Source: Chloroflexota bacterium
Lineage (GTDB): Bacteria; Chloroflexota; Limnocylindria; Limnocylindrales; CSP1-4
DNA length: 32,110 nt
NCBI GenBank assembly: GCA_003158875.1
Contig: PMLK01000081.1
Coordinates: 26,173-58,282, forward strand
Direction of reading: 5' to 3'
Part shown: one piece after another, positions 19,161-24,223 of the stretch
Numbering within the stretch: the first letter of the stretch is position 1
Layout: the number at the start of each line of letters is the position of its first letter
The notes under the pieces: model-generated
The model's input: the letters and a program-made list of their open reading frames with translations, nothing else
Databases searched by the model: none
What the model was told of the DNA's origin: nothing
Translations under genes and position numbers: made by a program

Positions 19161-19946
19161 TCAGCGGCCGGCGGTCAGAGCTGCGACGGCGACCAGTGAG
19201 GCGACGGCGATCGTCAGCCAGTCGCGCCACGAAACCTTCAACTCGCGGAAGTGGGTTCGCCGGATGCCACTGTCGAAGCCGCGCGCATCCATCGCCAGGG
19301 CGAGGCGCTCCGCACCTCGAATAGCGGCCACGAGCATCACCACGAGCCTGTCGCCGGCGGCGCGGATCCGACTCGCGGGCCCGCCGGAGCTCAGGCCTCG
19401 CAAGCGGCGGGCGGCACCGATGATCGCCCAGTCGTCGGCCATGAACGGCGCCACTCGCATGGCGCCCAGAGTGCCATAGGCGAATCTGTCGGGAACGTGC
19501 CACTGCTGGACCAGGGAGTCGGCCATCTGCGTGGGGTCGGACGGGCCGAAGACGAGCAGGGTCGCGAGGGCGATGACGACGACGCGAAGCCCGATGGCCA
19601 GGCCGCCAGTGACAGCCGGGGCAGTTATGCGCACGGGTCCGAATTGGAACAGGGCATCGAGCGATCGATCGCCGTTGGCGCCGGCGAAGAGAATCGAGAA
19701 GAAGGTCAGGCTTGCGATCGCGAATCCGAGCGGAGCCAGGCGTCGCGGGATGCGGCGCAGCGGCAAGCCCGACCACAGGACGATGGCGATCACAGCGGCG
19801 ACGGACAGCCGGATCGGCACGACCGGGTCCAGCGTCACGATCGAGGCCACGAGCCAGATCGAGCCCGCGACGAGGCGGGCCGCCGGCGTGACTCGAGTCA
19901 GGAACGCGGGGCGGATCGGTCCCAGCGGAGCCGGCATGAAGCTCAT
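19161..19946 (-). CDS. ykoC: ECF transporter transmembrane (T) component, YkoC-like
   Basis: 261 residues from ATG 19946, whose ATGA overlaps the stop of the ATPase gene. There are about five hydrophobic segments and the cytoplasmic coupling motifs of EcfT proteins: ADSLVQQWHVPDRFAYGTLG, the basic ARRLRGL segment and the Ala-Arg-Gly motif in AMDARGFDSG. In energy-coupling-factor importers this subunit links the ATPases to the substrate-binding S component. It ends the thiamine operon and is the T partner of the YkoE-like and YkoD-like proteins encoded upstream. Confidence 0.92.
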   Translation of the reverse strand: MSFMPAPLGPIRPAFLTRVTPAARLVAGSIWLVASIVTLDPVVPIRLSVAAVIAIVLWSGLPLRRIPRRLAPLGFAIASLTFFSILFAGANGDRSLDALFQFGPVRITAPAVTGGLAIGLRVVVIALATLLVFGPSDPTQMADSLVQQWHVPDRFAYGTLGAMRVAPFMADDWAIIGAARRLRGLSSGGPASRIRAAGDRLVVMLVAAIRGAERLALAMDARGFDSGIRRTHFRELKVSWRDWLTIAVASLVAVAALTAGR

Positions 19947-21700
19947 CGAGTCTGCCCCGCGGCTGGTTTCGGGGCGGTTTCCGTGGCGGTTTCCGTGGCC
20001 ACTCCGGCACGCCATGGCGCGGCGGGCGTGTAGGGTGGCTCCGCGAGAAAGCGGTCCGGCGACCCGTCGAAGACGACGCGGCCGTGCTCCAGGGCCACTA
20101 CCCGGTCGCAGTGGGGGAGCAGTCGAGGGTCGTGCGTGGCGAGCAGCTGGGTCTGGCCGGTGGCCCGCATGGCGTCCAGCAGCGTCATCACCGCGCCGGT
20201 GCCACGACGATCGAGACCGAATGTGGGCTCGTCCAGCAGCACCACAGCCGGCGGCCGAAGCGCCAGTGCGGCAAGGCTGAGTCGTCTCTGCTCGCCCTGG
20301 CTCAGCCGGAACGGATCCTGATCGGCAAGGTGCCCGAGACCGAACTGGGCGAGCACGCCGTCCGCGTCGGGGGGCACGGAACCGGGTCCGGCGGAAGTGC
20401 GACGGCGGCCGACGGCGGTGTGGCCTTGCGGATCCCGATCCTGGTTCCGATCCTGAGCCGCCAGCTCCGAGGCGGCGACCTCGTCGCGCGCCGTCCTGGC
20501 CACGAACCCCAGCTCGGGGTCCTGGAAAACAAGCCCGATCCGGACGGCGATCTCGTTCGATCGGAGTCTCGCCGGGTCTCGGAACTTCTCGGCCGCTTCA
20601 GCTTCACCTGCCGCCGGCAAGGCCCGCAACCCAACCGAGCCCCGGTTCGGTCGTCGCAGGCCGCACAGGGCGAAGAGCAGCGTCGACTTGCCGCTGCCGT
20701 TCGGGCCGACGATGGCGATCCGTTCGCCGGCTCGCGCCTCGATCGAGAGTCCGTCCACGGCGCTGTGCACGCCCGACTCGATGGTGTAGTCGACGCCGAG
20801 ATCGACTGCCCGCAGCAGCACCGGCGCCCCGCTCGACATCGACGGCGGCTTGGCGATTGCGGCCCCCGCGCCGCCCGCCCCCGCGCCGCCCGCCCCCGCG
20901 CCGCGTCCCGTCATATCCGCGCCTTCCCAGGCGCGGGGCACCCAGGCGCCGCTGCGCTCGAGCAGATCGACCGCATCCCTGCCCACCGAATCGGCTGGGG
21001 CGAACGCCATCTGCCGACCCTCATCGTCGATCAGCAGGACGTCGTCGGCCAGTGGCAGGGCGGCCTCGAGCCGGTGCTCGATCAAGACGATCGTGTGCTG
21101 TCGGCGCCGGGCCAGCGCCGCCAGCTGTTCGAGCGTGTCGTACATGCCGGGCGGGTCGAGGTTGGCGGTAGGTTCGTCGAAGACGAGCAGGCTCGGTTCG
21201 GCCGCCAGCACGTCGGCAATGGCGAGGCGCTGCTTCTCGCCACCGGACAGAGTGCCCGTGGCCCGCGACTCGAAGCCCGTCAGCCCAACTTGACCGAGTG
21301 CGATCGGCACCCTCGCCTGCATATCGGCCCTCGGCCAGCCGCGGTTCTCCAGCCCGAACGCGACCTCGTCGTCGACACGGGCCATCACCAGCTGGCAGTC
21401 CGGGTCCTGGAACACGAGCCCGACGCGTTCGCCCAGGAATCGGGCGGGGGTCGACGCCACGTTCATCTCGCCGATGCGCAGCACACCCTGCCAGATGCCC
21501 GGTAGGGTGTGAGGTACCAGCCCGGTCAGAGCGCGGGCGAGCGTGCTCTTACCCGAGCCCGACGGCCCCAGCACGAGCAGCGTTCGCCCCGGTTCCAGCC
21601 TGAAGGTGATGTCCGCAAGCGCCGGTCTGGGTCGACCGGCATACGTCCAGCGGAGTCCGATCGCCTCTACGGCGGGGGGACCCGAGCGCGGCGAGGTCAC
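19943..21700 (-). CDS. ykoD: ECF transporter fused double ATPase (A1-A2), YkoD-like
   Basis: 585 residues from GTG 21700, overlapping the S-component stop by 4 nt. Two ABC ATPase domains lie in tandem. The first has Walker A GPSGSGKST (45-53), signature LSGGEKQR and Walker B LLVFDEPTANLD. The second has GPNGSGKST, signature LSQGEQRR and VVLLDEPTFGLD. They are joined by a Gly/Ala-rich linker encoded by a 15-bp tandem repeat, and the second half has a polar insertion of about 40 residues before its signature (DRNQDRDPQGHTAVG). It hydrolyses ATP to drive uptake of thiamine or its hydroxymethylpyrimidine precursor with the YkoE-like and YkoC-like subunits. The tail is low complexity. Confidence 0.94.
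   Translation of the reverse strand: MTSPRSGPPAVEAIGLRWTYAGRPRPALADITFRLEPGRTLLVLGPSGSGKSTLARALTGLVPHTLPGIWQGVLRIGEMNVASTPARFLGERVGLVFQDPDCQLVMARVDDEVAFGLENRGWPRADMQARVPIALGQVGLTGFESRATGTLSGGEKQRLAIADVLAAEPSLLVFDEPTANLDPPGMYDTLEQLAALARRRQHTIVLIEHRLEAALPLADDVLLIDDEGRQMAFAPADSVGRDAVDLLERSGAWVPRAWEGADMTGRGAGAGGAGAGGAGAAIAKPPSMSSGAPVLLRAVDLGVDYTIESGVHSAVDGLSIEARAGERIAIVGPNGSGKSTLLFALCGLRRPNRGSVGLRALPAAGEAEAAEKFRDPARLRSNEIAVRIGLVFQDPELGFVARTARDEVAASELAAQDRNQDRDPQGHTAVGRRRTSAGPGSVPPDADGVLAQFGLGHLADQDPFRLSQGEQRRLSLAALALRPPAVVLLDEPTFGLDRRGTGAVMTLLDAMRATGQTQLLATHDPRLLPHCDRVVALEHGRVVFDGSPDRFLAEPPYTPAAPWRAGVATETATETAPKPAAGQTR
20862..20905. repeat. 15-bp tandem repeat encoding the inter-ATPase linker
   Basis: Nearly three copies of GCCCCCGCGCCGCCC (20862-20876, 20877-20891, 20892-20905, the last incomplete) encode Gly/Ala repeats between the two ATPase domains. 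Copy number may vary among strains. Confidence 0.8.
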
Positions 21701-22284
21701 TCGCCGGACTTGAATGCCCCGAGCGCACCTGTGCGACGCAGAGAGCGGACCAGCAACCATCCGCCGAGCCCTGCGATCACGGCGCCCGAAATCACCTCTA
21801 GAGCGGCAATGCCGAACTGAAGATCGGCCGTGTACGTGGCGAACCAGACCTGAAGGTCGTGCAGGGCTTCGCCGAGCCCGGCACCGGCGCCGGCGATGAA
21901 CGCCACGATCGGCCCGAAGCTGCGGTACATCACGAAACCGAAGACGATCTCGGCGCCGGCGCCCTGAACGAACCCGGACAGCAGCGTGTCGAGGCCCCAC
22001 TGGCTGCCCAGTGCGACGGAGATGATCGCCGCCACCATTTCGGCGAAGAGCGCGGCGCCGGGCTTGCGGACGATCAGCGGCGCCACAACCGCGGGCATGA
22101 CCCACATGCCGCTGACGACATATTCCCACGGCTCGCCCAGCGGCTTGAGCCACTCCCACACGTAGGCGTTCCAGGCGTAGAAGACGACGCCGAAGGCAAC
22201 CGCGATGATGGCTACGACGATGATGTCCACGGTCCGCCAGCGGCTCGACTCAGCCTTGGCGTTGACCGACAGAACGTTTGTCAC
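21697..22284 (-). CDS. ykoE: ECF transporter S component, YkoE-like (thiamine or hydroxymethylpyrimidine)
   Basis: 195 residues from GTG 22284, which overlaps the thiN stop by 4 nt and has GGAGGAA about 6 nt upstream. About five or six membrane helices are visible, with the YkoE-type pattern (FYAWNAYVWEWLKPL, then GMWVMPAVVAPLIVRKPGAA). This is the substrate-binding membrane subunit. In Bacillus subtilis the YkoEDC system handles thiamine or its pyrimidine moiety. The TPP riboswitch and adjacent thiamine kinase make that role very likely here. No YkoF-like soluble binding protein is encoded nearby. Confidence 0.93.
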   Translation of the reverse strand: MTNVLSVNAKAESSRWRTVDIIVVAIIAVAFGVVFYAWNAYVWEWLKPLGEPWEYVVSGMWVMPAVVAPLIVRKPGAALFAEMVAAIISVALGSQWGLDTLLSGFVQGAGAEIVFGFVMYRSFGPIVAFIAGAGAGLGEALHDLQVWFATYTADLQFGIAALEVISGAVIAGLGGWLLVRSLRRTGALGAFKSGE

Positions 22285-23003
22285 TTCGCTTCCTCCAGGC
22301 TTGATGGCACGGTTCTCGTTTCGACGATGAGCAGGCTGCCGCTGCGGAGCGTCACGCTCGCCTCGGCGGAAATTCGGACGTTGGACAGGCCCCGGGCCAG
22401 CCCGGGTTGGAGCGTCTCGTCGTTAAGCGGGTACTCCAGGCCGGCCGTCGTGACCCCGGCGGCCGCCGTGCCCCAGGGCAGGAGCGAGACGAGATCGCCG
22501 ATTGACCCCGGCAGGGGGCAAGTGGCCGGCGAGCCGTCCGCGGCCGGTGCCCGCAACAACCGAACCCTGGTGGTGCCGTCGAGCAATTCCACCTCGGCGG
22601 CCGCCGGATCGGGCAGCGCCAGCAATGCCACGTTCGCGAGAGCGTGATCGAGGCGCTCGCCGCCCAAGCCACCCAGGATCGTCACGTGGGTCGCTCCCCG
22701 CCGGAACGCGGCCAGGAGGGCCAGCTCCATGTCCGACTCGTCCTTGGCCACGGGCGATCGCTCGACGGTAATCCCGGCGGCGGCCACTTCGTCGAAACGG
22801 GCCGCGGGCAGCGAGTCGCCGTCGCCCACGAGCAGCTGGGGCCGCAACCCCAGGACCACGGCCTTGCTCCAACCGCCGTCGGCCGCGACGACGAGCGCGG
22901 CTTCGTCCAACCAACCGGGCCACGCTTCGTCGAGAGCGGCACGGTCCGGCACGGCGCCGTCACCCACGACGGTCGCTTGCAGCCCGCCGGCTCCACTCAG
23001 CAA
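22281..23003 (-). CDS. thiN: Thiamine pyrophosphokinase
   Basis: 240 residues. Family motifs are clear: VVAADGGWSKAVVLGLRP, the ATP/Mg site LLVGDGDSL, KDESDMELALLAA, and ILGGLGGERLDHALANVALL. It converts thiamine and ATP to thiamine pyrophosphate and AMP. The start is TTG 23003, with a perfect GGAGG 6 nt upstream (23010-23014), directly after the TPP riboswitch; the T of the start codon belongs to a T5 run that follows the regulatory hairpin. It is first in a four-gene operon with the ECF importer, so imported thiamine can be trapped by phosphorylation and the product feeds back on the leader. Confidence 0.95.
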   Translation of the reverse strand: MLSGAGGLQATVVGDGAVPDRAALDEAWPGWLDEAALVVAADGGWSKAVVLGLRPQLLVGDGDSLPAARFDEVAAAGITVERSPVAKDESDMELALLAAFRRGATHVTILGGLGGERLDHALANVALLALPDPAAAEVELLDGTTRVRLLRAPAADGSPATCPLPGSIGDLVSLLPWGTAAAGVTTAGLEYPLNDETLQPGLARGLSNVRISAEASVTLRSGSLLIVETRTVPSSLEEAK

Positions 23004-23006
23004 AAA

Positions 23007-23034
23007 GCACCTCCATCCACGTAGACAGAGGTGC
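23007..23034 (-). promoter_or_regulatory. Expression-platform hairpin of the TPP riboswitch (terminator and Shine-Dalgarno sequestrator)
   Basis: On the minus strand GCACCTC (23028-23034) and GAGGTGC (23007-23013) form a perfect 7-bp stem with a 14-nt loop. The right arm contains most of the thiN Shine-Dalgarno, and the hairpin is followed at once by TTTTTG. One structure can therefore both terminate transcription and hide the ribosome site. Confidence 0.65.
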
Positions 23035-23042
23035 GTCGATTT

Positions 23043-23132
23043 GGACTCCCTGCGCCGGCATTATCCGGATCAAGTTCCAAGGGTCTGCGGATGCACTCCG
23101 CACTCTCAGCGCCTCGCGGCGCTCCCCTGTCC
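23043..23132 (-). ncRNA. TPP (THI-box) riboswitch
   Basis: The minus strand shows the conserved core: GGGGAGCGCC, a GCGA-capped P3 stem (GCGCC/GGCGC), CTGAGAG, an optional short stem (TGCGGA/TCCGCA), ACCCTTGGAACTTGATC, then CGGATAATGCCGGCGCAGGGA. P1 is closed by GGAC (23129-23132) and GTCC (23043-23046). It binds thiamine pyrophosphate and should turn off the thiN-ykoEDC operon 40 nt downstream when the vitamin is plentiful. Confidence 0.95.
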
Positions 23133-23370
23133 GTCTTCTGTTGTGTTTCGACTCTACACCCTCTGACCCGGCTTCGGCCAGCGAAGCGTCGGTCGGGCCC
23201 GCCGGCGGACCGTCCGTCCCACCCTCTGCCGACCGCCGGTTCGGCGAGACGGAGCCAGAGCCGAGAGGCGGTCATCAACTTGAGGGACCGCGATTTGCCA
23301 CTGTTGCGCGAGGCAGGAGCGCCGATATCTTCATTAAGAAACGACAAGCAGGAATGGTAGATTTCGAAAC
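23133..23370. other. Divergent promoter region (thiamine operon / ybaK)
   Basis: The region separates the riboswitch from the rightward ybaK-like gene. TAGAGT on the minus strand (around 23150) is a possible -10 box for the riboswitch transcript, and TAGATT (23358-23363) serves the plus strand. No gene is apparent. Confidence 0.45.
23352..23363 (+). promoter_or_regulatory. Putative -10 box of leaderless ybaK-like transcript
   Basis: TAGATT (23358-23363) ends 7 nt before GTG 23371. A TTAAGA, four of six bases like a -35, lies about 18 bp upstream. No Shine-Dalgarno site is present. Confidence 0.45.
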
Positions 23371-23928
23371 GTGACAGAGCCGCTTCAGCAGGGAATTCAG
23401 TCGGTCGTGCAAGCCGCCGCTCGCAAGGGTGTGGCTCTCGATATCCGGCGCGCGCCGTCCTCAGTACGAACGCCGGAGGCGATCGCGGCCGTGTTCGATG
23501 TCGAGCTTGGTCAGGTCGTGCAGGCTTCGATCTTCGTGGCTCCGCGGCCCGAAGGCCGGCTTTCGCCGATCGTATGTCTGGCGTCCGGCCGTGACGACGT
23601 CGACCTCGGCCTTCTGGCGGCGGTCACCGGCGAGGTTGCCCTCAGGCCCGCGACGGCCCGCGAGGCTCGTGAGATCACCGGCTCGTTGGCCGGCGGTATC
23701 CCCCCGTTTGGGTTCGGCCACGGCCTGCGCACCGTTATGGATCGCGACCTCAGCCGCTACCAGTGGATCTGGGCCCCGGCCGGCAGCGATTCTGAGGTGA
23801 TGCGAGTTTCACCTGGGACGCTGCGGATGCTTTGCAATGCCGTGGTAGTGCCGCTCGTCGGCTCCAACTGGCTGGCCGCCCCGACTCCGGCCCTGGCTCC
23901 GTCCCTCGCTCTAGGTGTAAACCCCTAG
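23371..23928 (+). CDS. YbaK/EbsC-family protein (aminoacyl-tRNA deacylase-like)
   Basis: 185 residues from GTG 23371. The YbaK fold is supported by LGQVVQASIFVA, VCLASGRDDVDLGLLAAVTG, GGIPPFGFGHGLRTVMDRDL and WIWAPAGS. Classical members remove mischarged amino acids, for example Cys or Ala from tRNA-Pro, in trans. The lysine expected in the (V/A)K(S/T)LVF segment is replaced here by Gln, so the standard chemistry may be altered or lost; many GC-rich Gram-positive relatives also lack it. The gene stands alone between the thiamine operon and an unknown leftward gene. Confidence 0.85.
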   Translation: MTEPLQQGIQSVVQAAARKGVALDIRRAPSSVRTPEAIAAVFDVELGQVVQASIFVAPRPEGRLSPIVCLASGRDDVDLGLLAAVTGEVALRPATAREAREITGSLAGGIPPFGFGHGLRTVMDRDLSRYQWIWAPAGSDSEVMRVSPGTLRMLCNAVVVPLVGSNWLAAPTPALAPSLALGVNP

Positions 23929-24173: not shown

Positions 24174-24223
24174 ACATGCGCAAAGGCGGCGTCTGGGAGA
24201 GTCTAGACGCCGCCTTTGCATGT
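24174..24223. terminator. Very strong hairpin between convergent genes, likely bidirectional terminator
   Basis: A 15-nt arm at 24180-24194 (GCAAAGGCGGCGTCT) is perfectly complementary to 24205-24219, with a 10-nt loop. ACATG/CATGT at the outer ends can extend it by 4-5 bp past a small bulge. The arms carry AAA and TTT edges, which suits termination from both sides. Confidence 0.7.

Follow-up and report, generated by a model that had tools for sequence, protein, structure and literature searches.

The leader of the thiamine diphosphokinase gene thiN in this Chloroflexota genome ends in a single hairpin that carries the Shine-Dalgarno (SD) sequence of thiN and runs directly into a T-tract, which raises the question of whether the hairpin acts on translation, on transcription or on both. 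The window, that is, the whole stretch of DNA analysed (32,110 nucleotides), is part of a 2.64-Mb draft genome, and L060-L064, the named relatives of its ThiN, belong to metagenome-assembled Chloroflexi. A covariance-model search bore out the TPP riboswitch that had been proposed in the initial annotation: RF00059 was matched on the minus strand from 23138 to 23030 with 74.7 bits (E 3.5e-13, cut-off 54.3), and the match covered model positions 1 to 105. This riboswitch precedes thiN and a set of ECF transporter genes joined by 4-base overlaps (Table 1). The element resembles RF00059 riboswitches in its full aptamer, its thiN-ykoEDC context and its expected OFF logic. Compared with RF00059, the aptamer is no different, whereas the expression platform of the window is family-specific.

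Table 1. Features of the thiN leader and of the downstream genes in the window.
Feature	Position	Strand	Remarks
Putative extended -10 promoter element GGTGTAGAGT	23151..23160	minus	conserved just upstream of aptamer
TPP aptamer (THI element)	23030..23138	minus	RF00059, full length 1-105
P1/P2 5' strand GGACAGGGG	23124..23132	minus	pairs within aptamer or with 23031-23023
P1 3' strand GTCC	23043..23046	minus	partner is GGAC 23132-23129 (RF00059 alignment)
Shared strand CCTCTGTCT	23023..23031	minus	antisequestor strand or left arm of SD hairpin
Sequestor/terminator hairpin GCACCTCTGTCT-ACGT-GGATGGAGGTGC	23007..23034	minus	12 bp
Shine-Dalgarno GGAGG of thiN	23010..23014	minus	within right arm of hairpin
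U-tract TTTTT	23002..23006	minus	directly after stem
TTG, most likely thiN start	23001..23003	minus	SD spacing 6; first usable in-frame start codon
thiN, thiamine diphosphokinase	22281..23003	minus	TIGR01378 137 bits, PF04263, PF04265
ykoE-like ECF substrate-binding permease	21697..22284	minus	PF09819 127.8 bits; 4-base overlap with thiN (GTGA)
ykoD-like double ATPase of ECF transporter	19943..21700	minus	ABC_tran, ECF_ATPase_1 294 bits; 4-base overlap with ykoE (GTGA)
ykoC-like ECF T component	19161..19946	minus	PF02361 80 bits; 4-base overlap with ykoD (ATGA)

TPP aptamers were searched for in 21 genomes of the window's genus and 107 of its family. Eighty-six leaders were fetched, 54 of which precede thiN, and the comparison set consisted of 37 thiN leaders (the window's and 36 others) whose platform could be read, all from the window's family (11 genera); one further same-genus leader (L008) was left out because of Ns in its platform. 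The 37 leaders were aligned on CAGGGGAGC in the aptamer 5' strand, CCTC in the left arm of the hairpin and GAGG in its right arm. For the genomic background, 503 kb of the window's genome were sampled, in which there are 189 SD-led starts. The two inner P1 pairs were kept in 37/37 leaders. Upstream of the aptamer, GGTGTAGAGT or one of the variants GGTGTAAAGT and GGTGTAGATT occupied this place in all ten same-genus thiN leaders, and similar boxes were found at varying distances in most of the family. GGTGTAGAGT is thus likely to be an extended -10 element, in which case the transcript would start a few bases 3' of it.

The genus itself is split, with 11 genomes having ThiN and a TPP-thiN leader whereas in the ten others (L023, L033, L035, L036, L039, L040, L041, L043, L044 and L045) ThiN was not detected and a single TPP aptamer is present. 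In most of the latter genomes the aptamer precedes a ThiD-like frame (LTIAGSDSGGGAG). The hairpin in these leaders is separate from the SD sequence, and TTTTT follows it once (L040).

The GCACCTC/GAGGTGC stem with GGAGG in its right arm, as described in the initial annotation, is present and is in fact longer than was written there, comprising 12 pairs. The full 28-nt hairpin folds at -17.9 kcal/mol and a 32-nt piece (23032-23001) at -12.6 kcal/mol, a value which none of 200 shuffles reached. An SD-masking hairpin was found in all 37 leaders. When the hairpin pairs were read across these leaders and their 11 genera, 95% of the cells over 11 pairs were paired, compared with 36-61% when one arm was slid by 1-4 bases. 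The outer pairs B-1 to B-3 covary through A-T/G-C and C-G/G-C swaps to a level matched by 0/300 shuffles; since the shuffles keep no phylogeny and shared ancestry remains, this covariation is strong support and is not to be read as a probability. The GAGG:CCTC core is invariant (37/37) and is therefore uninformative by covariation. Because compensatory changes recur in the 36 further leaders, the hairpin is not a product of chance, and the comparison strongly supports SD masking, namely the translational part of the proposed control.

A second helix competes for the same strand, which the initial annotation had not mentioned. The aptamer 5' strand GGACAGGGG is complementary to the left arm CCUCUGUCU, with 9 pairs in the window, and the resulting antisequestor helix, GGACAGGGG:CCUCUGUC, covaries. 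In leaders with CCTCTGTC it runs without interruption over 8-11 pairs; in leaders with CCTCCGTCCC a single A-C mismatch divides it into 5+4 pairs. Over the 37 leaders, 89% of the antisequestor cells were paired in register and 37-58% when slid by 1-4 bases, and the two variable outer pairs covaried to a level attained by none of 300 shuffles. The pair A-4:B9 lies just outside P1 and occurs as G-C (17 leaders) and C-G (5) and also as A-T, T-A and G-T. It was paired in 25/37 leaders against 13.6 in shuffles (0/300 equal), whereas the same base, when used to extend P1 by one pair instead, was paired in 1/37.

The ligand-free state was modelled by folding the nascent RNA cut just before the SD sequence, since equilibrium folding of the complete leader says little about it. 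Under this condition, the antisequestor with all or nearly all of its pairs was the unconstrained best fold in 34 of the 37 leaders, and over all 37 it was better than the ligand-free P1 fold by a median of 9.0 kcal/mol (6.4 kcal/mol in the window). When the SD arm was included, the hairpin fold of the window became the better one by 8.1 kcal/mol, and the equilibrium fold of the whole leader without ligand was already OFF, with the hairpin formed. The ON state would thus depend on folding during transcription. Since the nascent fold favours the antisequestor and the complete fold favours the hairpin, the choice between them is probably kinetic. Complementarity, covariation and nascent folding all indicate that the alternative helix excludes both P1/P2 and the sequestor.

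Based on these results, the leader is likely to be a TPP-responsive OFF switch of thiN-ykoE-ykoD-ykoC, in which the SD-masking hairpin and the antisequestor are mutually opposed, probably with some termination in addition. When little TPP is present, GGACAGGGG would pair with CCUCUGUCU as soon as the left arm has been transcribed; the antisequestor formed in this way would remove the left arm from the hairpin, leave the SD sequence free and allow thiN to be translated, and the transporter genes would presumably be translated after thiN by coupling through the 4-base overlaps. When TPP is bound, presumably before the left arm emerges, GGACAGGGG would be held in P1/P2 and the left arm would stay free, so that GCACCUCUGUCU could pair with GGAUGGAGGUGC and hide the SD sequence. 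In the window's genus, the U-tract at the foot of the hairpin probably makes it stop a part of the transcripts ahead of thiN as well, which would amount to dual attenuation.

TTTTT does follow the stem immediately (23006-23002) and overlaps an in-frame TTG (23003-23001), as had been claimed, and the frame read from this TTG encodes ThiN (TIGR01378, 137 bits). The codons at this point are TTG ATG AGT GGA GCC in L013, TTG GTG AGT GGA GCC in L010 and TTG CTG AGT GGA GCC in the window, and thus the CTG of the window (23000-22998) aligns with an ATG or GTG of its relatives. This alignment suggests that the ancestral start was probably the second codon; the change to CTG would leave TTG as the likelier start in the window's genome. 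It is unlikely that translation of thiN instead begins at CTG 23000-22998, or that a true G was misassembled as the C of this codon. L013 and L010 have ATG and GTG at exactly the same codon after the same TTG, which favours such a start, but CTG starts are rare in bacteria and the TTG is in frame and 6 nt from GGAGG. The only other ATG, GTG or TTG in frame near the N-terminus, a GTG at codon 13 or 14, was rejected as a start since it lies inside the first beta-strand segment (ATVVGDG, aligned with ALIVADGD of the relatives), and the ATG at 23016 in the hairpin was rejected since it is out of frame and soon meets a stop. The rarity attributed to the TTG start did not hold up, as 18 of the 189 SD-led genes in the 503-kb sample (about 10%) use TTG and relatives start one codon downstream. 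The close fusion of U-tract and start codon is thus accidental and local and not a design that the relatives share. Two further thiN leaders, L093 (on the same contig as L060) and L018, seemingly start with TTG as well (GGAGGTGCTGTTTGTTGAATCGG; GGAGGTGTTTTCTTGCGC), suggesting that thiN start codons change easily.

Whether the U-tract terminates transcription to any extent was judged from its distribution and from the genomic background. A T-run of at least 4 within 12 nt of the GAGG core was present in 9/10 same-genus leaders, as T4-T5, and in 1/27 others; the tenth same-genus leader has TTCTT in its place. ThiN proteins of the genus are only 66-71% identical to that of the window, which indicates that the U-tract has been retained beyond mere recent ancestry, with shared descent still possible. 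Composition of an ordinary spacer is an unlikely source of the U-run, as a T-run of at least 4 between SD sequence and start, counted into the start codon, was found for thiN and one other gene among the 189 SD-led starts. The 503-kb sample has only 7 hairpins (8 bp or more) that run straight into four or more T, that of thiN among them. Two of the 7 are found immediately after genes, one after a tRNA-Asp gene and one after a pilin-like reading frame, where real terminators would be placed. An approximate linear terminator score was 31 for the window, 23 on average for the genus and -4 elsewhere.

These data have to be set against a purely translational switch, in which the T-run would be an unstructured U-rich spacer without termination of consequence. 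Such a switch is a real possibility, though a somewhat doubtful one. In the rest of the family almost every genus masks the SD sequence without a U-tract, the U-tract of the window consists of just 5 T before GC, and terminator-like sites in the window showed no excess over the shuffled expectation, so that such sites may be little used by the organism; yet the rarity of such T-runs after SD sequences, their retention at the stem foot in the genus and the comparable hairpins behind the tRNA gene and the pilin-like frame are at odds with a mere spacer. The opposite extreme, that the hairpin is solely a terminator and encloses the SD sequence merely because the leader is short, would account for a 12-bp stem running directly into TTTTT. 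It is very improbable, since pairing of the SD sequence is conserved and covaries in genera that have no U-tract. The balance tips slightly towards added termination in the window's genus, and the transcriptional part is best regarded as plausible and genus-specific. Accommodation of the SD mask and the U-tract in one hairpin, as the initial annotation had it, therefore stands and makes dual control plausible, but the two roles are unequally supported, as the mask is conserved family-wide and the U-tract hardly occurs outside the genus.

Tight overlap of this kind had been considered unusual, whereas TPP riboswitches of such a design form an established category. Barrick and Breaker (2007; PMC2258182) described terminators that lie close enough to the gene for the ribosome-binding site (RBS) to fall within the 3' arm of the hairpin, and named this "dual transcription and translation attenuation", citing an earlier comparative TPP study for the category. 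The window element fits this platform in its anatomy, having a terminator-type hairpin (12 bp and TTTTT) 3' of the aptamer and the RBS (GGAGG, 23014-23010) within the 3' side of that hairpin. It differs from the dual platforms of PMC2258182 in that its relatives keep the SD mask more widely than the U-tract and that its U-tract directly adjoins the start codon. Translational TPP riboswitches likewise have a mutually exclusive antisequestor and SD sequestor; the antisequestor of the window, unlike theirs, comes from the P1/P2 5' strand and not from the P1 3' strand, a difference for which novelty is not claimed. The leader is thus a well-supported further member of an already described switch type, and what is added here is a comparative series within one family and an antisequestor from the aptamer 5' strand.

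Since the mask occurs in all 37 leaders and the U-run is nearly confined to one genus, the ancestral device would have been a translational OFF switch to which the U-tract was added in that genus. Whether the family in fact preserves such a series, from a purely translational ancestor to one genus that gained a U-tract and hence a dual switch with its other parts unchanged, is evenly poised. The leaders form a natural comparison set, with the same aptamer, hairpin and gene with and without a U-tract, which can serve for tests of how control by riboswitches moves between the translational and the transcriptional level. They also provide a concrete model of the regulation of thiamine uptake for an uncultured Chloroflexota lineage.

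Several other elements were noted in the same material. In the window, a strong inverted repeat without a long T-run (GCAAAGGCGGCGTCT...AGACGCCGCCTTTGC, 24180-24219) lies downstream of a tRNA-editing-domain gene (23371-23928) and is possibly a terminator. In a TPP-thiN leader of the same class (L049, genome G056), a GC-rich hairpin, GCGGCGCTCAGGTGCGCCGCTTTTTCGTTTCATG, stands just 3' of the aptamer; it is terminator-like with no obvious SD sequence within, indicating that a sister family has a platform of another kind. Finally, in genomes of about 1.1 Mb from the same order (G037-G052; e.g. leaders L005, L006 and L009), CATCGCG precedes the thiN aptamer, and a conserved sequence complementary to CATCGCG, either CGCGATAG or GCGATAG, follows the aptamer. 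These complementary flanks suggest that another kind of switch helix may form there before the SD sequence.
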